A DNA stretch of 45,119 nucleotides from a virus. Under the pieces are notes generated by a model. It saw only the letters and a list, made by a program, of their open reading frames with translations. It had not been told where the DNA came from and did not search any database. Location: the IMG/VR virus record IMGVR_UViG_3300043409_000185, positions 1 to 45,119 of that record. One strand, written 5' to 3'. The position numbers and the translations under genes are program-made. This document shows, one piece after another, positions 35,341 through 44,217 of this stretch; position 1 is the stretch's first letter; every line of letters starts with the position of its first letter.

Positions 35341-35355
35341 CCTAACAATGTTAGG
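35341..35355. promoter_or_regulatory. Dispersed 15-bp palindrome, copy 1 (perfect)
   Basis: CCTAACAATGTTAGG, perfect. Lies 13 bp upstream of the -35 box of the first early promoter, within the divergent intergenic region. Confidence 0.9.
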
Positions 35356-35368
35356 TTTATGATAAAGC

Positions 35369-35397
35369 TTGACATTGTGCCACAAATAAGGTATAAT
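35369..35397 (+). promoter_or_regulatory. Early promoter 1, sigma-70 consensus
   Basis: TTGACA (35369-35374), 17-bp spacer, TATAAT (35392-35397): a full consensus match. Start expected near 35404, giving a leader of about 45 bases before the gene at 35450. It would be read by unmodified host RNA polymerase immediately after infection. Confidence 0.9.
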
Positions 35398-35449
35398 GTT
35401 TATAAGTAGGGGCAATCTCGCCTCTACTTAATTACTAGGAGTCGCAAAC

Positions 35450-36025
35450 ATGAAAGCTAAACTAAAAACACCAGCCCCGATAGAATTGATTGTCACTAGT
35501 GTATCGCCCGCGCCTGTTGTGGATTTGAGTAATCTGCGGGTCGCTGTCGCTGAATCCCTTGAATCCAGTTATGGTGCTCAGCGTGTGTATGGTGCAGCGT
35601 TAAACTCTGTCCTTCCCCGTTTCTGGTTTGATGTCGAGCATACCATGACGGGCGAAACTGCCAAAGTGACTAAAGCGGAAAAGCTAGCATTATATGGGGT
35701 GCTAAAAGCAGCGAAACATTCCAACCCAAGCGTAATATGGGGACGGATTCGCAATTATGGGCGCGAAGCGTACCAGTTAACCGAAGCCGTAGCACGTCAT
35801 GCCAATATGACACCGGACGAAATAGCAGCGGAAAAAGCAGCTATTGAAGCGGAAAAAGCAGCTAAAAATGCTGGTAGTCCACGCAGTCCACTTTTACGCA
35901 ATACTGAGGAACTTCTAGCATTGTATAATTTTAATGCAAAACTGGAAGACATACCAGCGAAAGTAGTCGAAGCGCAAAAAGGCATTGTAATGGCACTAAC
36001 TGCCCTAGGTCACAAATTTTTATAA
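35450..36025 (+). CDS. First early-arm protein, function unknown (191 aa)
   Basis: Soluble and Ala-rich. Contains VAVAESLESSYGAQRVYGAA, a Lys-rich helix (TAKVTKAEKLALYGVLKAAK) and SNPSVIWGRIRNYGREAYQL, then EAEKAAKNAGSPRSPLL and the end ALTALGHKFL. The SNPSxIWxRIRxYG pattern appears in early proteins of other phages but I know no function. It is the first gene behind a consensus promoter, so it is likely made in quantity at once after infection, as takeover or anti-defence proteins are. AGGAG precedes the ATG. Ends in a hairpin with a GAAA tetraloop. Confidence 0.7.
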   Translation: MKAKLKTPAPIELIVTSVSPAPVVDLSNLRVAVAESLESSYGAQRVYGAALNSVLPRFWFDVEHTMTGETAKVTKAEKLALYGVLKAAKHSNPSVIWGRIRNYGREAYQLTEAVARHANMTPDEIAAEKAAIEAEKAAKNAGSPRSPLLRNTEELLALYNFNAKLEDIPAKVVEAQKGIVMALTALGHKFL

Positions 36026-36031
36026 CCTAAC
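36015..36031 (+). repeat. 17-bp direct repeat, copy 1
   Basis: AATTTTTATAACCTAAC occurs here across the stop codon of the 191-aa gene and again at 36399-36415 across the stop of the 55-aa gene. The second copy runs into a full dispersed palindrome; this one keeps only the left half. Confidence 0.85.
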
Positions 36032-36032
36032 C

Positions 36033-36052
36033 TCCCGCCCGAAAGGGCGGGA
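36033..36052 (+). terminator. Hairpin with GAAA tetraloop after first early gene
   Basis: Eight-base-pair stem (TCCCGCCC/GGGCGGGA) closed by GAAA, a stable GNRA-type loop. There is no U tract after it (ATTCTATAA), so it may be an attenuator, RNA stabiliser or partial terminator rather than a full stop; the next gene begins 20 bp further on. Confidence 0.6.
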
Positions 36053-36071
36053 TTCTATAAAGGACAATGCC

Positions 36072-36245
36072 GTGTTAAACACAACAGAAAAGACATTAAT
36101 AACCGAAACCTATGTAGACTATTTTCCTAAGCGTCCATGTAGCGATATACCCGAACTACTCGCCCATGCCGGGGCTCTCATCGAAGAAATAACACAGGAC
36201 AACGTAAAATTTCTAGTCTGGGATTTTATAGGCACAAAGATATGA
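36072..36245 (+). CDS. Small early protein, GTG start (57 aa)
   Basis: GTG at 36072 with AAAGGA eight bases upstream. Product starts MLNTTEKTLITETYVDYFPK and ends VKFLVWDFIGTKI; soluble, mildly acidic, no recognised motif. Its TGA overlaps the next ATG (ATGA), so the two small genes form a coupled pair. Confidence 0.6.
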   Translation: MLNTTEKTLITETYVDYFPKRPCSDIPELLAHAGALIEEITQDNVKFLVWDFIGTKI

Positions 36246-36409
36246 AACCAATTACAGTATGGCAGCGATTTTACCCCGCTACAAATACATGGGAGCATAA
36301 TCATATCAGCGATAATCATACGGAGTTAAATGCACCGATAGCTATATCAGACATTCAAAAATCATGCTGGAAAAATGCAATCTGGCGATACCATCACGAA
36401 TTTTTATAA
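36242..36409 (+). CDS. Small early protein (55 aa)
   Basis: Coupled by ATGA overlap to the previous gene. Product is rich in Trp, His and Asn (MKPITVWQRFYPATNTWEHN, CWKNAIWRYHHEFL). No family recognised. Followed at once by a dispersed palindrome and a strong terminator. Confidence 0.6.
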   Translation: MKPITVWQRFYPATNTWEHNHISDNHTELNAPIAISDIQKSCWKNAIWRYHHEFL

Positions 36410-36415
36410 CCTAAC
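36399..36415 (+). repeat. 17-bp direct repeat, copy 2
   Basis: AATTTTTATAACCTAAC, same as 36015-36031, again crossing a stop codon. Confidence 0.85.
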
Positions 36416-36424
36416 ATTGTTAGG
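36410..36424. promoter_or_regulatory. Dispersed 15-bp palindrome, copy 2 (perfect)
   Basis: CCTAACATTGTTAGG, perfect. One base after the stop of the 55-aa gene and five bases before the terminator stem. Confidence 0.9.
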
Positions 36425-36429
36425 TTTAA

Positions 36430-36457
36430 CCCCGCCCTGATCGGCGGGGTTTTTTTT
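36430..36457 (+). terminator. Rho-independent terminator
   Basis: Seven-base-pair GC stem (CCCCGCC/GGCGGGG) with a 6-base loop, followed by eight T residues. A strong terminator closing the first early transcription unit. Confidence 0.9.
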
Positions 36458-36506
36458 CGCGGTTTTTTCCGGTTTTCGGTCTTATCGTTACTCTGTTATG
36501 TCTTGT

Positions 36507-36558
36507 GTATTTGTATTTGAATTTGTATTTGAATTTGAATTTGAATTTGTATTTGTAT
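36507..36558 (+). repeat. 6-bp tandem repeat GWATTT
   Basis: Eight full units plus a partial: GTATTT, GTATTT, GAATTT, GTATTT, then three GAATTT, GTATTT, GTAT. The alternation of only two variants suggests slippage of multi-unit blocks. Confidence 0.9.
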
Positions 36559-36582
36559 GATAGTTTTATGATAGTTCCCACA

Positions 36583-36646
36583 CAACGACCCAACGCCCCA
36601 ACGCCCCAACGCTCCAACGACCCAACGCTCCAACACCCCAACGACA
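36583..36646 (+). repeat. 8-bp tandem repeat CAACGCCC-type, eight units
   Basis: Eight contiguous octamers share CAAC at their start and C at most ends (CAACGACC, CAACGCCC twice, CAACGCTC, CAACGACC, CAACGCTC, CAACACCC, CAACGACA). Almost no G-free strand bias breaks it. Iteron-like. Confidence 0.9.
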
Positions 36647-36662
36647 CAGCGTACCACCAAAG

Positions 36663-36677
36663 CCTAACATTGTTAGG
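36663..36677. promoter_or_regulatory. Dispersed 15-bp palindrome, copy 3 (perfect)
   Basis: CCTAACATTGTTAGG, perfect, in the non-coding region just after the octamer array. Confidence 0.9.
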
Positions 36678-37132
36678 TATAGGGAGGGTTAAATTCAAAA
36701 ACAGACATAGTAGGGCATAGGTTTTTAATTTGAACGCAGCCACAGACAGATTAGGGGCATTGCTGAGGATTCAGCCTATTTTAGCCCTAGTTTGCCCCAC
36801 ATTAACACCCCAAAATAACCCGTAATATTACGTGTAATAAAATACCACCCCCAAGACCCGCATGGATAGGCTTTGTAGCAATGTAAGGCGTTTTACCAAG
36901 TATAGCCCCCCTTTTTCAAAACCTACAACGTCTTTTAAGCACAAAGCAAAAAAGAGTAAATTTTAACGAAATTTGAAAATCCCCCCCTCACTATAATATT
37001 TACATTACAATATACTATACACACACACTACCTATTACATAGCCTGCTATCATTGAATTCATATTGTAATTTCTCGCGTAATTTTCCTGTTTTTGCTTTA
37101 TTACGCTATACATAAGGATAAGACCAATTAAC

Positions 37133-37161
37133 TTGACATAAACCCTTATTTGTGGTACAAT
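37133..37161 (+). promoter_or_regulatory. Early promoter 2, sigma-70 with extended -10
   Basis: TTGACA (37133-37138), 17-bp spacer, TACAAT (37156-37161) with TG one base before it. The surrounding sequence (ACCAATTAAC before, ATATATGTAAGTGGAGTT after) is nearly the same as at promoter 3 (39086), so the two are copies of one module. Confidence 0.88.
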
Positions 37162-37211
37162 ATATATGTAAGTGGAGTTATAGGTTATTTTTGATTGTAA
37201 ACCGAGCAATA

Positions 37212-37226
37212 CCTAACATTGTTAGG
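37212..37226. promoter_or_regulatory. Dispersed 15-bp palindrome, copy 4 (perfect)
   Basis: CCTAACATTGTTAGG, perfect. In the leader of promoter 2, beginning about 50 bp after the -10 box and 21 bp before the ATG at 37247. Confidence 0.9.
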
Positions 37227-37246
37227 TACTACTAAGGAGAAACAAA

Positions 37247-37423
37247 ATGAGCAAAATCACAAAAGCCCAGCAGCAAGCTATCAAGCGTAAGTTTGAGCGT
37301 GACGATCAGGGCATGACGTACTTACAGTTTCGGCGCAGTGTGAAGTATGGGTACGACTGCCTGATGGTGCGATGGTGCGGAATGTGGCTCGGCATCGAAA
37401 AAGACGGTTACACGCACTCATAA
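37247..37423 (+). CDS. Conserved small phage protein (58 aa)
   Basis: Starts with a basic helix (MSKITKAQQQAIKRKFERDD) and has the conserved core TYLQFRRSVKYGYDCLMVRW, then GMWLGIEKDGYTHS. This short protein is frequent in tailed phages, with no assigned function known to me. AAGGAG lies before the ATG. First gene of the second early unit. Confidence 0.7.
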   Translation: MSKITKAQQQAIKRKFERDDQGMTYLQFRRSVKYGYDCLMVRWCGMWLGIEKDGYTHS

Positions 37424-37431
37424 AGACAAAA

Positions 37432-37446
37432 CCTAACATTGTTAGG
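37432..37446. promoter_or_regulatory. Dispersed 15-bp palindrome, copy 5 (perfect)
   Basis: CCTAACATTGTTAGG, perfect, in the 39-bp gap between the 58-aa and 55-aa genes, just before the AGGAG of the latter. Confidence 0.9.
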
Positions 37447-37462
37447 ACACAGGAGATAAATC

Positions 37463-37630
37463 ATGACGGAAGAAGATTTTGAAGAAGCACACAAGATTAA
37501 AGAAAATCTTGCGGCGGAGATACATGCGATAGTTAATGTTGCTTTGTCTGGCAAATCGTCGGAAATGGATACACTAATACGCGAACTACTCGATGAGGAA
37601 TTCAGATTCTATACAAGGAGAACAAAATGA
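37463..37630 (+). CDS. Small acidic early protein (55 aa)
   Basis: AGGAG is placed well before the ATG. Product is helical and charged (EEDFEEAHKIKENLAAEIHA, SSEMDTLIRELLDEEFRFYT). No family recognised. The stop overlaps the next start (ATGA). Confidence 0.6.
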   Translation: MTEEDFEEAHKIKENLAAEIHAIVNVALSGKSSEMDTLIRELLDEEFRFYTRRTK

Positions 37631-37761
37631 ACCGACACGAGGAGTTTTTCCCACGACAACCACGCAAGCCATTCGAGCCTACACCGTGGCTAATAGTGCT
37701 TTTGATCGTAATGAGTATTGCTTTGGTATCAATAATTGATAACTGCGGTATAGCATCATGA
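37627..37761 (+). CDS. Small membrane protein (44 aa)
   Basis: Soluble Pro/Arg-rich start (MNRHEEFFPRQPRKPFEPTP) then one membrane helix (WLIVLLIVMSIALVSIIDNC). Overlaps both neighbours by ATGA, and has an AAGGAGAACAAA leader. Early single-span phage proteins often act at the host membrane (for example in superinfection exclusion), but nothing here shows that. Confidence 0.6.
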   Translation: MNRHEEFFPRQPRKPFEPTPWLIVLLIVMSIALVSIIDNCGIAS

Positions 37762-38084
37762 TGTGCGGCAAGCCGCACTCACAGAAACAGGACAAAACTA
37801 GAATCAGTAGCGTCCACAAGGTGGAGAGGGGTGGAGAGTTGTTGGGTTATTTTGGACACCAGCAGTACATCGTCTTCTATACCAACACCACGTGCCTAGT
37901 CTGGGATGATAAATTGCAGGTACACAAGTATCCAGAGCAGTACATAAGGGTTGATGCAGTTGACGAGATGGATGCCGCAATCAAGGGCATGGATAAGCTA
38001 AGAAGTTTGTACGGGGCTAACAATGTTAGGCTTGGAGGCAACAAAGATGAGTTAGGAGGCAACGGAGATTCACAAGAGAAGTAA
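37758..38084 (+). CDS. Early protein of unknown function (108 aa)
   Basis: Basic N-terminus (GKPHSQKQDKTRISSVHKVE), beta-rich centre (HQQYIVFYTNTTCLVWDDKL), helical MDAAIKGMDKLRSLYGANN, and a polar Gly/Asn-rich end. I do not recognise it. Translationally coupled to the membrane protein (ATGA). Contains a near-perfect dispersed palindrome (38016-38030) in its coding sequence. Confidence 0.6.
   Translation: MMCGKPHSQKQDKTRISSVHKVERGGELLGYFGHQQYIVFYTNTTCLVWDDKLQVHKYPEQYIRVDAVDEMDAAIKGMDKLRSLYGANNVRLGGNKDELGGNGDSQEK
38016..38030. promoter_or_regulatory. Dispersed 15-bp palindrome, copy 6 (one mismatch, in gene)
   Basis: GCTAACAATGTTAGG; only the first base differs. Encodes A-N-N-V-R in the 108-aa protein. 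Confidence 0.75.
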
Positions 38085-38112
38085 ATTAAAACTAAACCAC
38101 AGGAGAACTAAA

Positions 38113-39075
38113 ATGGCTTACGGACATACTTTTAGAGTGTACTCAAACAGGATAAAGACCTACGAGGAAGCACTAGCGCACGAGGCAGCAGTCAAGCCAA
38201 TACGTGGCAAGACTATTAAGCCACTGCATAGACGTAGGGATACTCACTTAACCATAAGGAAGCAAGATGTGTGGCAAGCCGCACTTTTGGGGCAGACGGA
38301 GACTGTCTTTGAGGGTGAGGAGGTTGTTATCCAGATGTACAACACGGACATCGTTAAGTACCGACCAAATGGCGACATATATGTGCAGATTGGTGGGTGG
38401 ATAAACATGGCTACGTGCCAAGTGCTGACTGACATACTAGGGGCTAACTTCAATAAGTATGACAACAAGATGTGGGTAAAGTGTGACATCCCAGAAAGTT
38501 ACAGTACTTATGCACTGCCAATAGATGCCCACGCACCCAATATATTTAGGGTGAACACGAGTAACACACTGGAGTTCCAGAACTACAAGTATCCAGAGGT
38601 GCATAACTTGAACAGGCAAAAGGCTAACATTGTTAGGAAGCAGTACAAGTCGTTCCGGCAATACCTGACTAATAACTTTAAGCTGCGTAGTGAGGATGGT
38701 GGGGTTACTTGTACCTTTGGGGCTGATGAGTTTTTGGAAGCGTTCAAACCCGATCAGGTATACGGCATACCTAATATACCCAATGTTCGAGTAGTAGGTA
38801 AGAAGTGGACTAACGAGAAAGCCGTAGCGGAGTACATGGCGTTAATAACTAACGATGGGCTTGGGCATAAGACTGAGGACTTCTATAAGGCGGTACTCAT
38901 GACTGTGGGTGCAGGTGGAGGCTACCGTAGACATAATGCCGTAGCCTTGAAACAGTTACTGAAGGTACTCGATGACTGCATACTCTACCATCACAGGGAC
39001 ACGGTGTTTGTAAAGAAGCAAGTAACCACAGGGGCTTGGGTTATAGATAGCTACTCCCGATTCATGGAGCAATAG
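38113..39075 (+). CDS. Early protein of unknown function (320 aa)
   Basis: Soluble, basic N-terminal half (FRVYSNRIKTYEEALAHEAA, IRGKTIKPLHRRRDTHLTIR), a mid section with VQIGGWINMATCQVLTDIL and KYDNKMWVKC, then AEYMALITNDGLGHKTEDFY and VGAGGGYRRHNAVALKQLLK. I have seen proteins of this type before the MoxR/VWA genes in uncultured phages but know no function. Leader ACAGGAGAACTAAAATG matches that of other early genes. A near-perfect palindrome lies inside it. Confidence 0.65.
   Translation: MAYGHTFRVYSNRIKTYEEALAHEAAVKPIRGKTIKPLHRRRDTHLTIRKQDVWQAALLGQTETVFEGEEVVIQMYNTDIVKYRPNGDIYVQIGGWINMATCQVLTDILGANFNKYDNKMWVKCDIPESYSTYALPIDAHAPNIFRVNTSNTLEFQNYKYPEVHNLNRQKANIVRKQYKSFRQYLTNNFKLRSEDGGVTCTFGADEFLEAFKPDQVYGIPNIPNVRVVGKKWTNEKAVAEYMALITNDGLGHKTEDFYKAVLMTVGAGGGYRRHNAVALKQLLKVLDDCILYHHRDTVFVKKQVTTGAWVIDSYSRFMEQ
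38623..38637. promoter_or_regulatory. Dispersed 15-bp palindrome, copy 7 (one mismatch, in gene)
   Basis: GCTAACATTGTTAGG; first base differs. Encodes A-N-I-V-R in the 320-aa protein. Confidence 0.75.
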
Positions 39076-39085
39076 ACCAATTAAC

Positions 39086-39114
39086 TTGACACGGACACTA
39101 TAATGTGGTACAAT
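39086..39114 (+). promoter_or_regulatory. Early promoter 3, copy of promoter 2 module
   Basis: TTGACA (39086-39091), 17-bp spacer, TACAAT (39109-39114), extended by TG. Flanks ACCAATTAAC and GTAAGTGGAGTT are shared with promoter 2. It drives the MoxR/VWA operon. Confidence 0.88.
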
Positions 39115-39167
39115 ATATATAGTAAGTGGAGTTGTACGTGTAAATTAAGAGAACCGGCAGGAGCAAG

Positions 39168-39182
39168 CCTAACATTGTTAGG
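39168..39182. promoter_or_regulatory. Dispersed 15-bp palindrome, copy 8 (perfect)
   Basis: CCTAACATTGTTAGG, perfect. In the leader of promoter 3, starting 54 bp after the -10 box, nearly the same distance as copy 4 from promoter 2 (51 bp). Confidence 0.9.
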
Positions 39183-39250
39183 TGTAGTAGAGAAGATGTA
39201 ACTAACCCAATTTGGGTTCAAGATGTACCTTAACTTAATGGAGACACAAA

Positions 39251-40318
39251 ATGGCTGAGATCAACTTTGGCAACACAGTATCACTGAAGCAAGCAGCAAG
39301 TATCATCATGTCCACACCAATGAACCGTTACCTATTACAAGGAGAGCCGGGGATTGGCAAGAGTAGTTTACTCAAGGTTATCGGTGAGCAGCTACCGACC
39401 CACGAGGTTGCCTATATAGATGTGCCCAACATGGACTTAGGTGATATAGCTATGCCTGTCATAGACCATGATAACAAAGTTACCCGCTACTACCCCAATA
39501 GTCGTTTCAAGATACATCTGGGTAAGCCAGTGTGCATAATGTTAGACGAGTACCCCAAAGGTGCTGAGCCTATTAAGAACATGCTTCACCCTATGCTAGA
39601 AGTAGCTAACCCACGGCTAGGGGATATACCCATGCACCCTGAGTCTATCGTGTTCCTAACAGGTAATCTATCCAGTGATGGAGTAGGTGATTCTCTCAAG
39701 GCGCATAGCAGGAATAGGATTATCCCATTAACAGTGCGGAAGCCTGATGCTGACGAGTGGCTAGAGTGGGCTGTCAATAACAACATAGAGCCAGTAGTTA
39801 TGGCGTGGGTCAAGCAGTTTCCTCATGCTATGGCATCCTATACAGACGGTACGCAGTCTGAGAATCCCTACATATATAACCCCAAGAAGGTGCAGATAGG
39901 CTTCGTTACCCCACGTTCACTCGAGCGAGTATCTAACATTGTTAGGGTGCGGGCACAGTTAGATACCGAGTCGCTACTGTGTGCTGTAACAGGTGCAGTT
40001 GGGGAGTCAGCGTCAAGGGATATGCAAGCCTTCATTGAGTATCAGAACCAGCTACCCACATGGGAGGCAATACTCAAATCGCCACAGACTGTAGATGTAC
40101 CTGATTCTGCTGGTGCGTGTGCGGTGCTTATCTTTGGAGCTGTGTCTAAGGTGGCTAAGGATAACATAGCATCCTTTATGCAGTACCTTGAACGCTTCGA
40201 ACCAGAGTGGCAAGCATGTTTCGCTATCAACATAGCCAAGAATCCAGCTAAGCAGAGCATAGCGTTTAGTAGCAGTGCGTTTGCTGCATGGGTGGCTAAG
40301 AATGAAGACCTGTTATAA
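39251..40318 (+). CDS. MoxR-type AAA+ ATPase
   Basis: 355 residues. Walker A GEPGIGKS (31-38), Walker B VCIMLDE (94-100), sensor 1 FLTGN (135-139), arginine-finger region SLKAHSRNRI (148-157), sensor 2 TPRSLE (220-225). These features and the partner gene (VWA protein next door) place it with MoxR-like AAA+ chaperones, which form hexamers and remodel a VWA-bound client, as in CobS/CobT and ChlI/ChlD chelatases. In the phage the client is unknown. It leads an operon of at least five genes with near-identical ribosome-binding leaders. Confidence 0.85.
   Translation: MAEINFGNTVSLKQAASIIMSTPMNRYLLQGEPGIGKSSLLKVIGEQLPTHEVAYIDVPNMDLGDIAMPVIDHDNKVTRYYPNSRFKIHLGKPVCIMLDEYPKGAEPIKNMLHPMLEVANPRLGDIPMHPESIVFLTGNLSSDGVGDSLKAHSRNRIIPLTVRKPDADEWLEWAVNNNIEPVVMAWVKQFPHAMASYTDGTQSENPYIYNPKKVQIGFVTPRSLERVSNIVRVRAQLDTESLLCAVTGAVGESASRDMQAFIEYQNQLPTWEAILKSPQTVDVPDSAGACAVLIFGAVSKVAKDNIASFMQYLERFEPEWQACFAINIAKNPAKQSIAFSSSAFAAWVAKNEDLL
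39932..39946. promoter_or_regulatory. Dispersed 15-bp palindrome, copy 9 (one mismatch, in gene)
   Basis: TCTAACATTGTTAGG; first base differs. Encodes S-N-I-V-R in the MoxR-type ATPase. Confidence 0.75.
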
Positions 40319-40339
40319 AACAACAACTAGGAGAACAAA

Positions 40340-41542
40340 ATGACTGAAGTTATCGAGGTTAGGGACGTAGAGGAACGCCGTCTTAAGAGGGCTAAGATAA
40401 GCCTGATGCGTAACCCGATGTTCGCATTGTGGCAAGGCATCATGATGGTAGGTAAGACTGAGATCTGTGACGATATACCCACAGCGTGTACGGATGGGCG
40501 TAACGAGTGGTACGGCAGGGAGTTCATCAAGTCACTAGATGACAAGGAGTTGTGCTTCGTAATACTGCACGAGAATATGCACAAGGCACTGAGGCACATG
40601 ACTACGTGGCGCAAGTTGTGGGATGAGGATGCTAAGTTAGCTAACTGTGCTTGTGACTACGTGATTAACCTGATGATCGTGGACATGGATACTAAGGAGC
40701 AGTTCATCTCAGTACCCCAGAAGGACGGCAAGCCACGTGCTCTCATTGACGGTAAGTTCAAGGGTATGAACAGTAAGCAGGTGTTCGACATACTCAAGCA
40801 GGAGCAAGCCGATGGCAAGGAGGGTAGGGGTGAGGGCTTTGATGAGCATGATTGGGAGGGTGCTAAGGGTATGTCTGAGGAGGAGTCAAAGACACTCGAG
40901 CGCGAGATAGACCAAGCCCTACGTCAAGGTCAGATTGCACATAAGAAGATATGTGGTAAGGGTGCGGGTGGCATGAACCGAGAACTAGGGGACTTACTTG
41001 AGCCACAGATAGACTGGCGTGAAGTGATGCGTGAGTTCGTTAAGTCTATATGTAGCAGTAAGGATGCCTCGTCATGGCGTAGGGTCAACCGTAGGTTCTT
41101 ATCTAGTGGTGTATATATGCCAACACTAATAGGGGAAAGCATCGGTAGCCTAGTCATAGGCATAGATACGTCTGGGTCTGTCGGTGTAAAGGAACTTAAT
41201 ACGTTCTTGTCTGAGGTGCAAGCCATAGCTAAGGATGTTAACCCCCAAAAGGTAGACCTTATCTATTGGGATAGCGAGGTGGCATCACATGAGGAGTACG
41301 ACACTTGCACACTACCTAACATTGTTAGTAGTACCAAGCCCAGAGGTGGTGGGGGTACTGATCCTACTGCACTACAGGACTACTTGATTAAGAACAACAT
41401 AGTACCTGAGTGTATCGTGATGCTAACGGATGGTGAGATAAGTGATTGGGGCACTGAGTGGAACGCACCAGTATTGTGGACTATCTGCGGTAACTCACGA
41501 GTGTATGCACCAGTAGGTAAGACTGTTCACGTTAACAACTAA
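40340..41542 (+). CDS. HExxH metallopeptidase-like / VWA-domain protein (DUF2201-type)
   Basis: 400 residues in two domains. The N-terminal part has HENMH (H77, E78, H81; zinc-type HExxH) followed by CACDYVINLMI (third-ligand region near D106), as in predicted metallopeptidases fused to VWA. A charged linker (about 150-200) leads to a VWA domain with the MIDAS metal site: DTSGS (276-280), GGGTD (338-341) and LTDGE (362-366). Such proteins pair with MoxR ATPases; the gene before it is one. Substrate and process are unknown; protein quality control, chelatase-like activation or host-protein remodelling are all possible. Confidence 0.85.
   Translation: MTEVIEVRDVEERRLKRAKISLMRNPMFALWQGIMMVGKTEICDDIPTACTDGRNEWYGREFIKSLDDKELCFVILHENMHKALRHMTTWRKLWDEDAKLANCACDYVINLMIVDMDTKEQFISVPQKDGKPRALIDGKFKGMNSKQVFDILKQEQADGKEGRGEGFDEHDWEGAKGMSEEESKTLEREIDQALRQGQIAHKKICGKGAGGMNRELGDLLEPQIDWREVMREFVKSICSSKDASSWRRVNRRFLSSGVYMPTLIGESIGSLVIGIDTSGSVGVKELNTFLSEVQAIAKDVNPQKVDLIYWDSEVASHEEYDTCTLPNIVSSTKPRGGGGTDPTALQDYLIKNNIVPECIVMLTDGEISDWGTEWNAPVLWTICGNSRVYAPVGKTVHVNN
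41315..41329. promoter_or_regulatory. Dispersed 15-bp palindrome, copy 10 (one mismatch, in gene)
   Basis: CCTAACATTGTTAGT; only the last base differs. Encodes P-N-I-V-S in the VWA protein. Confidence 0.75.
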
Positions 41543-41553
41543 GGAGAAACAAA

Positions 41554-41718
41554 ATGACTAAGACAAGAGAGGAATTGGTAAAAGCTATAGGTCTACTTCA
41601 GGCTGCTGCTGCTGCTAGGGTTGCTGCTGCTGCTGTTGCTGCTAAGGCTGATTGGGAGGCTTATGAGGCTGCTAGAGATGCTTTGAAGGCTTACGACAAG
41701 GAGAACACAAATGAGTAA
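41554..41718 (+). CDS. Small Ala-rich helical protein (54 aa)
   Basis: MTKTREELVKAIGLLQAAAA then repeated Ala (RVAAAAVAAKADWEAYEAAR) and KAYDKENTNE. It should be a single long helix or coiled coil. The middle is coded by repeated GCT triplets, so it may vary in length by slippage. AAGGAGAAACAAA leader. Overlaps the next gene by 8 bp. Unknown role within the MoxR/VWA operon. Confidence 0.65.
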   Translation: MTKTREELVKAIGLLQAAAAARVAAAAVAAKADWEAYEAARDALKAYDKENTNE

Positions 41719-41950
41719 GGTAATAATTGAGTTGGGGTATGACAAGTATCTACTGGATACTAAAGAAGCCGTAGACCTAGTAGATATTCTATCTAAGGCG
41801 GAGTTATACAAGGAGGTGTGGCACAAGGAGGAGGACGGCGGTACTACCTACCACGTGTACGAGCAAGACCGTGTAAAGAGTTCAATGTCAATCATGCCTG
41901 ACCATCTATGTCGGATGGCTAGGTTAGCTGGTAAACCACAGGAGAAATAA
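41711..41950 (+). CDS. Small protein in MoxR/VWA operon (79 aa)
   Basis: MSKVIIELGYDKYLLDTKEA and VDLVDILSKAELYKEV, then YHVYEQDRVKSSMSIMPDHL. A mixed alpha/beta fold is likely. Similar short proteins with a YHVY segment occur in phage early regions; no function known to me. Leader AAGGAGAACACAAATG. Confidence 0.6.
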   Translation: MSKVIIELGYDKYLLDTKEAVDLVDILSKAELYKEVWHKEEDGGTTYHVYEQDRVKSSMSIMPDHLCRMARLAGKPQEK

Positions 41951-41951
41951 C

Positions 41952-42806
41952 ATGGGAATCACATCAAGCGCAATGCTAGTAGAACTTAACCTAAGTGTAT
42001 GGACTGCTAGTAAGTTAGACAAGGCTGAGACAAGTAAGGTTACTACTAGCAACTCAGCAGTAAAGGGTGCAGCACAGGTACGTAAGAATCTTATGGCGGG
42101 TACATCCTACCGCAAGGACATAGCAGACTACGCAGCAGGGTGTAGGCTATGGCATAACTCTCGAACGCTACCGTGGGCTGAGAAGGGTGCGCGGCTCATA
42201 CCGACTAGCCTGTTCATGGACTACAAGAGTGAGGCTAATGTTAGGAGGGCTACGTTTGACAAGATGGTTAACGAGTTCATTACTGTATACCCTAGCCTTG
42301 TCCAGACTGCACAGAACTACTTAGTGGGGCTGTTTGATCCGGCTGACTATCCTGATGCTGAAGTAGTACGAAGCAAGTTCGGGTACAGGCAAGTGTTCTC
42401 ACCAGTGCCAGAGTCAGGGGACTTCCGACTACAGGTGGCTGACCAAGACTTACAAGAACTACGTGAGCAGTACGAGGAGTCATTCAATAGCCGGATTGCT
42501 GAGGCTATGCGTGAGCCGTGGGATAGGCTACATAAAACTCTTACGTCTATATCAAGCAAGCTGACTGACGTAGAGGGTGACGAGGAGAAGAAGCGGTATC
42601 ACGATACCCTTATCACTAACGCACAAGGACTATGCGCTATGTTGACGCACTTAAACATAACCAAAGACCCCAAGCTAGAGGATGCACGCCGTCAACTAGA
42701 ACTAACAATGTTAGGTGCTGACATGGAAATGATTAAGGAAGACCCCCATGTGCGTAGTGTTATGAAGGACAAGGTAGATAATATTCTTAAACAATTCGAG
42801 TGGTAA
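41952..42806 (+). CDS. DUF3150-like protein of the MoxR/VWA operon (284 aa)
   Basis: The N-terminus SAMLVELNLSVWTASKLDKA followed by a basic helical region (AAQVRKNLMAGTSYRKDIAD) and CRLWHNSRTLPWAEKGARLI resembles DUF3150, a family often encoded next to MoxR/CobS-like ATPases and VWA proteins in phages. The rest is helical and charged, with ELREQYEESFNSRIAEAMRE and a C-terminal coiled coil. Probably works with the ATPase and VWA protein, as adaptor or client; that is inferred from linkage. ACAGGAG before the ATG. Confidence 0.65.
   Translation: MGITSSAMLVELNLSVWTASKLDKAETSKVTTSNSAVKGAAQVRKNLMAGTSYRKDIADYAAGCRLWHNSRTLPWAEKGARLIPTSLFMDYKSEANVRRATFDKMVNEFITVYPSLVQTAQNYLVGLFDPADYPDAEVVRSKFGYRQVFSPVPESGDFRLQVADQDLQELREQYEESFNSRIAEAMREPWDRLHKTLTSISSKLTDVEGDEEKKRYHDTLITNAQGLCAMLTHLNITKDPKLEDARRQLELTMLGADMEMIKEDPHVRSVMKDKVDNILKQFEW
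42701..42715. promoter_or_regulatory. Dispersed 15-bp palindrome, copy 11 (one mismatch, in gene)
   Basis: ACTAACAATGTTAGG; first base differs. Read here in a different frame (L-T-M-L-G) from the other in-gene copies, so protein sequence does not explain it. Confidence 0.75.
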
Positions 42807-42816
42807 GGAGAACAAC

Positions 42817-43668
42817 ATGACGAGTTCAGACTATAAAGACGTAGCAATACTAGAGATGCCTAACATAGTAGTACGTATTGAAATAGATACTACGCTACCC
42901 GATGAGGCTTTTGGGGCTACAGCGGAGATGACACCCTACCTACTAGCCCTAGCTACAAAGAAACCTAACTGGAGATTCGTAGGTGTACAAGGCTGGCACA
43001 TACCGCATGATGAGGGTGGAAAGACATACGAGGCGTACAAGTTCAATGTATGGGAGGGTAAGTCTAAGCTAGGTAGTATATACACAGATAGGGGTAGGAC
43101 AAAGAATACAACTTACTACGCCGAAAACAATCGCATAATAAGGAAGCGAGAACGGGGTAGTGCTATGTTTACTACCAACGTAGCTAAGGCTGTTAAGAAT
43201 GTATGCAAGGAGTTCTACCCCGACACTAATACAGAGAGAATGGATGAAGCTATAAGTAGGTCACAAGGCATGATGCAGGATATAGTTGGTGATAAGACTC
43301 GGGGGCTTTCTAATAGGATAACAACGGTACTCAGAGGTTTGGAATCCTACGTGTTAGACAACTGGGAAACTATGTCTGTAATAGCTGCTAAGAATTGCCC
43401 AAAGGAGGTTAGCGAACTACCCTTAGCACGAGAGGAGAAGATAATAGCCGATGAGGTATATACCGCGTTTAAGAATAATGGAGGTACTCTAGTAGTTATA
43501 CACGGTAGTGATTACGTTACTTCTCAAGGTACGTATACCACGGACACATTACCCATAAAAATTAAACAGGGAGTGGGTATGCTTAAGTTAATAGAGGCGG
43601 GTCAGTGTATGCGAGGCATAGGGTTCAAGGTGAATGTAGATACATTTTATGTAATGGAGGTTTTATAA
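42817..43668 (+). CDS. Early protein of unknown function (283 aa)
   Basis: Soluble, alpha/beta. Contains VAILEMPNIVVRIEIDTTLP, KTYEAYKFNVWEGKSKLGSI, NRIIRKRERGSAMFTTNVAK, and a C-terminal part LVVIHGSDYVTSQGTYTTDT. I do not recognise a family, though the end has the look of a small beta domain. AAGGAGAACAACATG leader; last gene of the MoxR/VWA operon before the small ribbon-helix-helix-like gene, which it overlaps by one base. Confidence 0.6.
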   Translation: MTSSDYKDVAILEMPNIVVRIEIDTTLPDEAFGATAEMTPYLLALATKKPNWRFVGVQGWHIPHDEGGKTYEAYKFNVWEGKSKLGSIYTDRGRTKNTTYYAENNRIIRKRERGSAMFTTNVAKAVKNVCKEFYPDTNTERMDEAISRSQGMMQDIVGDKTRGLSNRITTVLRGLESYVLDNWETMSVIAAKNCPKEVSELPLAREEKIIADEVYTAFKNNGGTLVVIHGSDYVTSQGTYTTDTLPIKIKQGVGMLKLIEAGQCMRGIGFKVNVDTFYVMEVL

Positions 43669-43838
43669 TGAACGACAAGATGCTGAACGGCAGAGGTAAA
43701 GGTAAACGCAAGGCGTTAGTGCACGTTAGCGTGAGGCTACCAGAGGATGTAGTAGAGTTTTATACGCAGTACCCTAACTACACGAAGGCGATGCGGGAGG
43801 TACTAATTAAATATAAGGAGGAGCATGATAATGGCTAA
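43668..43838 (+). CDS. Possible ribbon-helix-helix DNA-binding protein (56 aa)
   Basis: I start at the ATG at 43668 (overlapping the previous TAA) rather than an upstream in-frame ATG at 43605. A basic N-terminus (RGKGKRKALV) leads to HVSVRLPEDVVEFYTQYPNY and TKAMREVLIKYKEEHDNG. The beta strand with alternating residues followed by LPEDVVEFY and a second helix is what CopG/Arc-type ribbon-helix-helix proteins look like. Such dimers bind palindromes, so it is a candidate for the protein that reads the dispersed palindrome. Not proven. Confidence 0.6.
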   Translation: MNDKMLNGRGKGKRKALVHVSVRLPEDVVEFYTQYPNYTKAMREVLIKYKEEHDNG

Positions 43839-44019
43839 AATAAATACTGATACATTTAAGGGGCATAATCCGTATCTCAATGCACCACGAGGTAGACCCA
43901 TAGGGTATAAGTCTTGTACTTGGCGGCGAGATGACAGGATACTTTCTGTGTGTTGCGAAGTAGTTGGGGTGTTGATATATATTCTTTTAGCAGCAGGTGT
44001 GGTATACATAGTAGTGTAG
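43831..44019 (+). CDS. Small protein with C-terminal membrane helix (62 aa)
   Basis: ATG at 43831 has AAGGAGG with a 9-base gap; the ATG at 43825 is too near that site. Product: polar N-terminus (MAKINTDTFKGHNPYLNAPR), Cys pair (SVCCEVV), then a membrane helix (GVLIYILLAAGVVYIVV). No family recognised. Overlaps the ribbon-helix-helix-like gene by 8 bp. Confidence 0.6.
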   Translation: MAKINTDTFKGHNPYLNAPRGRPIGYKSCTWRRDDRILSVCCEVVGVLIYILLAAGVVYIVV

Positions 44020-44118
44020 CGTAACTCCCAGTGTGCGGTGGTGCTATAACACACACAGTTTATATTAGCTGTACACTTTCGTGCTTGCGTGTCTCCCAGT
44101 GAAAGGATAAACCGACTC

Positions 44119-44138
44119 GCCCCCGTAAGGGGCTTTCT
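44119..44138 (+). terminator. Short terminator-like hairpin
   Basis: Stem GCCCC/GGGGC with a CGTAA loop, then TTTCTC. Short and with a broken T run, but it sits at the end of the operon and before the next promoter, so it is likely a terminator. Confidence 0.55.
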
Positions 44139-44143
44139 CATTG

Positions 44144-44158
44144 CCTAACATTGTTAGG
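44144..44158. promoter_or_regulatory. Dispersed 15-bp palindrome, copy 12 (perfect)
   Basis: CCTAACATTGTTAGG, perfect, between the terminator-like hairpin and promoter 4, starting 46 bp upstream of its -35 box. Confidence 0.9.
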
Positions 44159-44189: not shown

Positions 44190-44217
44190 TTGACAAACTC
44201 TAAAAGTATGCTATTAT
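44190..44217 (+). promoter_or_regulatory. Early promoter 4 for leaderless nuclease gene
   Basis: TTGACA (44190-44195), 16-bp spacer, TATTAT (44212-44217). The ATG of the next gene begins 7 bases after the -10 box, where transcription itself would start, so the mRNA should have no leader. Confidence 0.75.

Follow-up and report, generated by a model that had tools for sequence, protein, structure and literature searches.

A dispersed palindrome in the early arm

A palindrome, CCTAACAWTGTTAGG, is scattered through the early arm of a viral genome fragment and, judging from sequence comparison, is very probably the landing site of a viral regulator controlling the early genes. The fragment (IMG/VR record IMGVR_UViG_3300043409_000185) is a contig of 45,119 bases, the remainder of the genome being missing; its whole length is referred to below as the window. 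The palindrome occurs in 12 copies in the window, seven perfect and five with one terminal mismatch, and the core TAACAWTGTTA is identical in all 12. The palindromes are a conserved system and not a peculiarity of one genome: this phage and dozens of uncultured relatives carry 10–25 copies each, spaced ~500–800 bp apart over ~9 kb. The first-pass annotation of the window had proposed that a dimeric DNA-binding protein acts on regulatory sites scattered through the arm. The symmetry of the element, its link with promoters, concerted shifts of its form among relatives and a constraint on the codons that it overlaps support this prediction, and the case for regulatory sites is strong.

All 12 sites are situated within 35341–44158 (8.8 kb), and none was found in the other ~35–36 kb; the late arm, described earlier as free of copies, thus does not share the density of the early arm. 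With up to three mismatches allowed, the scan produced 12 sites versus 1.47 expected from shuffled sequences, no shuffle attaining 12, and the pattern read backwards, used as a control, gave no match. The coordinates, the split into perfect and mismatched copies and the invariant core all agree with the first-pass annotation, as does a shorter relative, GCTAATGTTAGG, at 42234. The perfect copies had been placed outside genes; they do avoid convincing genes, although a few weak open reading frames overlap them.

Conservation among relatives and concerted change of the site

The early arm of the window encodes a MoxR-like ATPase and a VWA/metallopeptidase-like protein. Relatives were gathered through the MoxR homologue, which gave 80 loci from IMG/VR with a total length of 1.05 Mb. 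The exact 13-bp core CTAACAWTGTTAG is present in these loci in 627 copies, while chance would give a small fraction of one. In complete relatives the sites span the region from the terminase-side intergenic sequence to approximately the VRR-NUC gene; replication and late genes hardly carry sites, a few outliers apart.

In about a quarter of the loci the window's form is rare or absent, and most of these carry a different form: CTAACA-NN-TGTTAG, CTAACA-NNN-TGTTAG, ATAACA-N-TGTTAT or CTAAC-NNN-GTTAG, each used genome-wide. The variation amounts to a spacer of 1, 2 or 3 bases and an outer pair that is C:G or A:T. On a tree of the MoxR and VWA proteins the shifts of form arose several times independently, each across many sites per genome. 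Such concerted shifts are to be expected if the sites share a trans-acting binder; a dozen sites drifting independently would not give them. In three loci (L158, L181 and L184) the gene order is the same and the palindromes are almost absent, being either lost or present in a form that was not recognised.

Constraint on the copies inside genes

The mismatched copies lie inside genes, and the first-pass annotation had argued from their use of two reading frames that protein sequence does not explain them. This argument stands, although its description of four copies as x-N-I-V-R was loose, since sites 6 and 10 depart from that pattern (Table 1). In the MoxR, VWA and 41952 genes the site is found at the same codons in most relatives. 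We classed genomes as site-rich or site-poor by the sites outside the tested gene, thus avoiding circularity. Counted without correction for phylogeny, the orthologous site is kept in 22/25, 21/25 and 21/23 site-rich genomes (MoxR, VWA and 41952 gene, respectively) and in 8/22, 9/24 and 9/23 site-poor ones.

Where the residue is unchanged, the codons of the core show a codon identity of 0.72–1.0 versus gene means of 0.50–0.53, and most of the codons on either side are variable. The same S-N-I-V is often encoded by different codons where a genome has another form of the site. The site is thus conserved where the surrounding codons are not, a check that the first-pass annotation had proposed: synonymous codons are free to change, yet the core codons are kept in site-rich genomes. 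In the 38113 gene, site 7 is retained among homologues of mostly 22–34% identity.

The centre base, read on the coding strand, is A in 228 cases and T in 177, that is, with no strong strand preference, and the two halves combine their outer bases freely (in L199, A and C are mixed in 12 of the 22 sites). The independence of the half-sites, together with the balance at the centre base, indicates that the symmetry acts at the DNA level.

Association with the first early gene and with early promoters

The first early gene of the window encodes a protein of a new all-alpha family, which consists of three subfamilies homologous by profile comparison. A scan with protein sequence only recovered the family in 80 loci. 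A site was present within 300 bp upstream in 56 of the 56 distinct first early genes with enough upstream DNA, and within 150 bp after the stop codon in 49 of the 55 with enough downstream DNA; the same site search in shuffled DNA gave two matches in 824 kb. The gene is present in nearly all long records with several sites; G041, which lacks it, is perhaps cut at its end. Five genomes (G004, G005, G006, G010 and G034) have two paralogues of the gene each.

Centres of sites are located at about –56, +51, +54 and –73 from the expected starts of the four best promoter-like sequences of the early arm; these promoter calls are consensus matches, which do not prove that promoters are present, and overall the scan gave no more matches than its shuffles. 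In relatives, the promoter of the first early gene often lies between two sites that are 111–132 bp apart. A promoter word, TGTGGTACAATATA, recurs in relatives (e.g. L125, L136 and L178) ~50–60 nucleotides before leader sites.

Intrinsic terminators peak 16–22 bases upstream of the palindrome. GC-rich hairpins with no U-tract abut it on the upstream side, with a gap of 0 or 1 base, in 22 and 23 cases among 863 sites; the mirror side has 4 and 3 such cases. A terminator right after the downstream site, considered as a general rule, was rejected: it was seen in 3 of 32 cases only, and hairpins precede the site instead. The abutting hairpins at sites downstream of the first early gene (in L374, L404, L388, L420 and others) are of varied sequence.

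Table 1. Palindrome sites and associated features of the window
Feature	Coordinates	Strand	Context
Site 1	35341..35355		Perfect; adjoins the –35 box of the first early promoter on its upstream side
Site 2	36410..36424		Perfect; immediately ahead of the intrinsic terminator 36428–36451
Site 3	36663..36677		Perfect; in an apparently non-coding stretch
Site 4	37212..37226		Perfect; in a leader, ~+51 from promoter 37133–37161, shortly before the ribosome-binding site of 37247
Site 5	37432..37446		Perfect; shortly before the ribosome-binding site of 37463
Site 6	38016..38030		Within gene 37758–38084; reads A-N-N-V-R
Site 7	38623..38637		Within gene 38113–39075; reads A-N-I-V-R
Site 8	39168..39182		Perfect; in a leader, ~+54 from promoter 39086–39114
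Site 9	39932..39946		Within the MoxR-like ATPase gene; reads S-N-I-V-R
Site 10	41315..41329		Within the VWA/metallopeptidase-like gene; reads P-N-I-V-S
Site 11	42701..42715		Within gene 41952–42806; reads L-T-M-L-G
Site 12	44144..44158		Perfect; terminator (44119–44133) on one side, promoter 44190–44217 on the other
First early gene	35450..36025	+	191 amino acids; new all-alpha family; leading candidate for the binder
P1, promoter-like	35369..35397	+	First early gene; TTGACA-17-TATAAT, 12/12
P2, promoter-like	37133..37161	+	TTGACA-17-TACAAT, 11/12
P3, promoter-like	39086..39114	+	TTGACA-17-TACAAT, 11/12
P4, promoter-like	44190..44217	+	TTGACA-16-TATTAT, 11/12
Intrinsic terminator	36428..36451	+	Strong; directly after site 2

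Other repeats and matches were seen in the window. The non-coding stretch around site 3 contains simple repeats TTTGAATTTG and CCCCAACGC at 36510–36650. The segment 36394–36458, with site 2 and the terminator, has weak, sub-threshold Rfam matches to bacterial small RNAs, two of them betaproteobacterial, which probably reflect the terminator shape only. Positions 1–740, probably inside a late structural gene on the minus strand, hold some twelve degenerate tandem repeats containing the word CACTGTTGTTAGTGCAGG.

Proposed mechanism and the candidate binder

We suggest, with somewhat better than even confidence, that the palindromes are operators of a phage-encoded dimeric regulator of the early region, the first early protein being the most likely binder. 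The regulator would occupy 10–25 sites over ~9 kb of the early region, sites that flank or follow early promoters, precede ribosome-binding sites in leaders, adjoin terminators or lie in genes. Acting as a repressor rather than an activator, it would reduce initiation at early promoters, that of the first early gene included, and so form a feedback loop; it would also impede the polymerase along the operon, such a roadblock to elongation being probable. Early expression would in this way be switched off as the lytic cycle advances.

The first early protein is favoured as the binder by its linkage to the sites. Its predicted model is all-alpha, with a mean predicted local distance difference test (pLDDT) score of 90.6, and the best conserved segment, NPSxxWxRVR, is located between two helices and could be a helix-turn-helix (HTH). 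Several observations weigh against this choice. The protein has no match to a Pfam family, and a fold search of PDB and BFVD gave no credible match. Its slightly acidic character in several relatives would be unusual in a protein that binds DNA. Two subfamilies that are ~20% identical accompany an identical 13-bp site. The perfect association of gene and site could merely mark the main early promoter, a target of any early regulator. Finally, in the window there is a single site upstream of the first early gene and none directly past its stop codon.

A bolder proposal, which we offer tentatively and consider rather less probable than its opposite, is that a new all-helical DNA-binding family reads the early-arm palindrome in lytic phages. 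Its members would silence their own promoter via two bracketing sites and halt the polymerase in leaders and genes, partly with the abutting hairpins that lack a U-tract, and distant relatives would have swapped protein and palindrome as a pair.

The first-pass annotation had named a 56-amino-acid protein (43668–43838) as a possible binder. This candidate, similar to ribbon-helix-helix proteins, is disfavoured: among genomes with the identical site its likely DNA-contact strand is free to vary (VHVNLR, VYFPLR, LCTSLR), and the site-free locus L158 keeps a close homologue.

Alternative explanations

The runner-up as the binder is a small Cro/HTH_3-like protein of 76–84 amino acids encoded beside a primase-like gene in the replication module; being the product of a middle gene, it would shut the early arm down. 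We regard this possibility as unlikely. The protein matches HTH_3; 21/30 records encode it, as do all the complete genomes that were checked. Like the half-site TAACA, its recognition helix hardly varies (SRQTVYNW in most cases), and the helix is altered in several genomes with altered sites (SKQT in A1, ATRQ in CT, SRAT or VTRQ in some C2). The correlation between helix and site is, however, imperfect, as SKQT also occurs in one C1 genome and SRQT persists in site-poor genomes; furthermore, the gene has no nearby site, and the record of the window stops short of its region.

Somewhat less probable still is that the binder is a transcription factor of the host and that the phage has copied its network. 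Coordinated shifts of the site could track changes of host, and the sharing of one site form by two first-early subfamilies would be readily accommodated; CTAACA-N-TGTTAG also resembles a TetR-type operator, a lead only. On the other hand, among the matches listed (119 stretches) from a scan of 84,980 genomes there were only single, scattered copies in unrelated taxa, and the form of the site tracks the phage tree over long stretches. The same listed matches contain no clustered copies of the kind that a host iterated palindrome (HIP1-like) would show, and the modification site entertained in the first-pass annotation finds no support among them.

We consider it improbable that the element is an RNA hairpin of early transcripts, either bound by a protein or altering mRNA stability or termination. 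The palindrome does fold as RNA, although with a 6-bp stem and a 3-nucleotide loop (–4.4 kcal/mol) and not with the 5-bp stem and CAUUG loop proposed earlier, and both the abutting hairpins and the peak of terminators are on its upstream side. Yet the outer pair is often broken with no penalty, the hairpin of the A1 form is very weak (–0.8 kcal/mol), the centre base has the balance described above, and the site upstream of the first early gene precedes the –35 box, so that this promoter does not transcribe it. Some copies may still have an RNA role, given the GC-rich hairpins that adjoin the palindrome solely on its upstream flank. Least probable is a role in partition, replication or packaging: some centromeres typically carry many spaced palindromes, and the sites are more evenly spaced than random in most genomes, but no ParB-family protein was found in 20 related, possibly incomplete, records, the sites shun replication genes and the late arm, and they are strongly linked with promoters and leaders.

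Distant phages with unrelated palindromes

Terminase, portal and capsid put the phage close to Planktothrix phage Pag-Yong1, phage 023Pt_psg01, DSL-LC04 and the pelagiphages HTVC023P/027P. Neither a tyrosine integrase (22 related records) nor a serine recombinase (resolvase; 20 records) was found in records that are possibly incomplete; together with the lack of ParB, this fits a lytic life of the phage group.

In the first 50 kb of Pag-Yong1, GTTCAG-N-CTGAAC occurs 18 times. The region 8816–58473 of its genome (OL906435) contains ~23 copies of GGTTCAG-N-CTGAACC, mostly ~23 nucleotides ahead of annotated start codons, and when sites of the broader form on the early side are counted, 13 of 19 are <40 nucleotides upstream of an annotated start. 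In L194 (6715–13135) the early arm has seven copies of an unrelated dispersed palindrome similar to TTTTCTTAGCTAAGAAAA, with half-sites TTTTCTTAG-CTAAGAAAA. The first early gene in both Pag-Yong1 and L194 encodes an unrelated protein of ~180 amino acids and has the phage's own palindrome on both sides. These proteins showed no homology with the family of the window, and no relatives of them were found in viral contigs except L194's own contig. The two cases suggest that protein and site may have been exchanged as a pair in distant relatives.

No comparable enrichment of a palindrome was seen in the pelagiphages, DSL-LC04 and 023Pt, nor in two Roseobacter phages, Caulobacter phage RW and a Manatee Spring phage. 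A literature search, with most subscription journals lying outside it, returned nothing on palindromes of this phage group or of Pag-Yong1.

Comparison with known systems

On anatomy, the nearest published analogue is the set of palindromes in Cluster O mycobacteriophages. Corndog and Firecracker carry 17-bp palindromes, TGTTCGG-N3-CCGAACA, with 34 copies in Corndog; their authors deemed control of initiation unlikely and in 2015 left function and binder unexplained (PMC4351075). We counted 25 copies in 31 kb of Firecracker. In both systems the sites are symmetric, present in many copies between and within genes, denser in one arm and with no meaningful orientation, the phages have no detected integrase and a dimeric binder is inferred. 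The Cluster O palindromes differ in having an unrelated sequence, a spacer of 3 and an unrelated phage as carrier, whereas the sites described here go with early promoters and one gene and undergo whole-genome shifts of form.

The first-pass annotation had drawn a parallel with the stoperators of mycobacteriophage L5, which does not hold as kinship. L5 stoperators are asymmetric 13-mers read by a monomer, oriented with transcription and spread genome-wide in temperate phages (PMC9283540). The palindromes of the window are symmetric, confined to the early arm and partly inside genes, and no integrase, resolvase or ParB was found; they are not stoperators of the L5 type, though they may work similarly. 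The likeness is in the scatter of sites, more than 20 in number, over promoters and the gaps between genes, in variants among relatives and in a proposed stop of both initiation and elongation.

In the gal operon dual operators bracket the promoter, as do the two sites ~111–132 bp apart around the promoter of the first early gene; here there are many additional sites downstream, and looping is without evidence. Cluster K mycobacteriophages have start-associated sequences (as cited in PMC4351075), which the early-side sites of Pag-Yong1 resemble in position; the sites of the window, in contrast, are palindromic and not bound to start codons.

Dispersed symmetric sites that were formerly puzzling are thus open to a direct test of binding, and the isolate Pag-Yong1 carries an analogue that is testable in culture. 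The observations point to a widespread system of early shut-off in uncultured, probably freshwater, phages.

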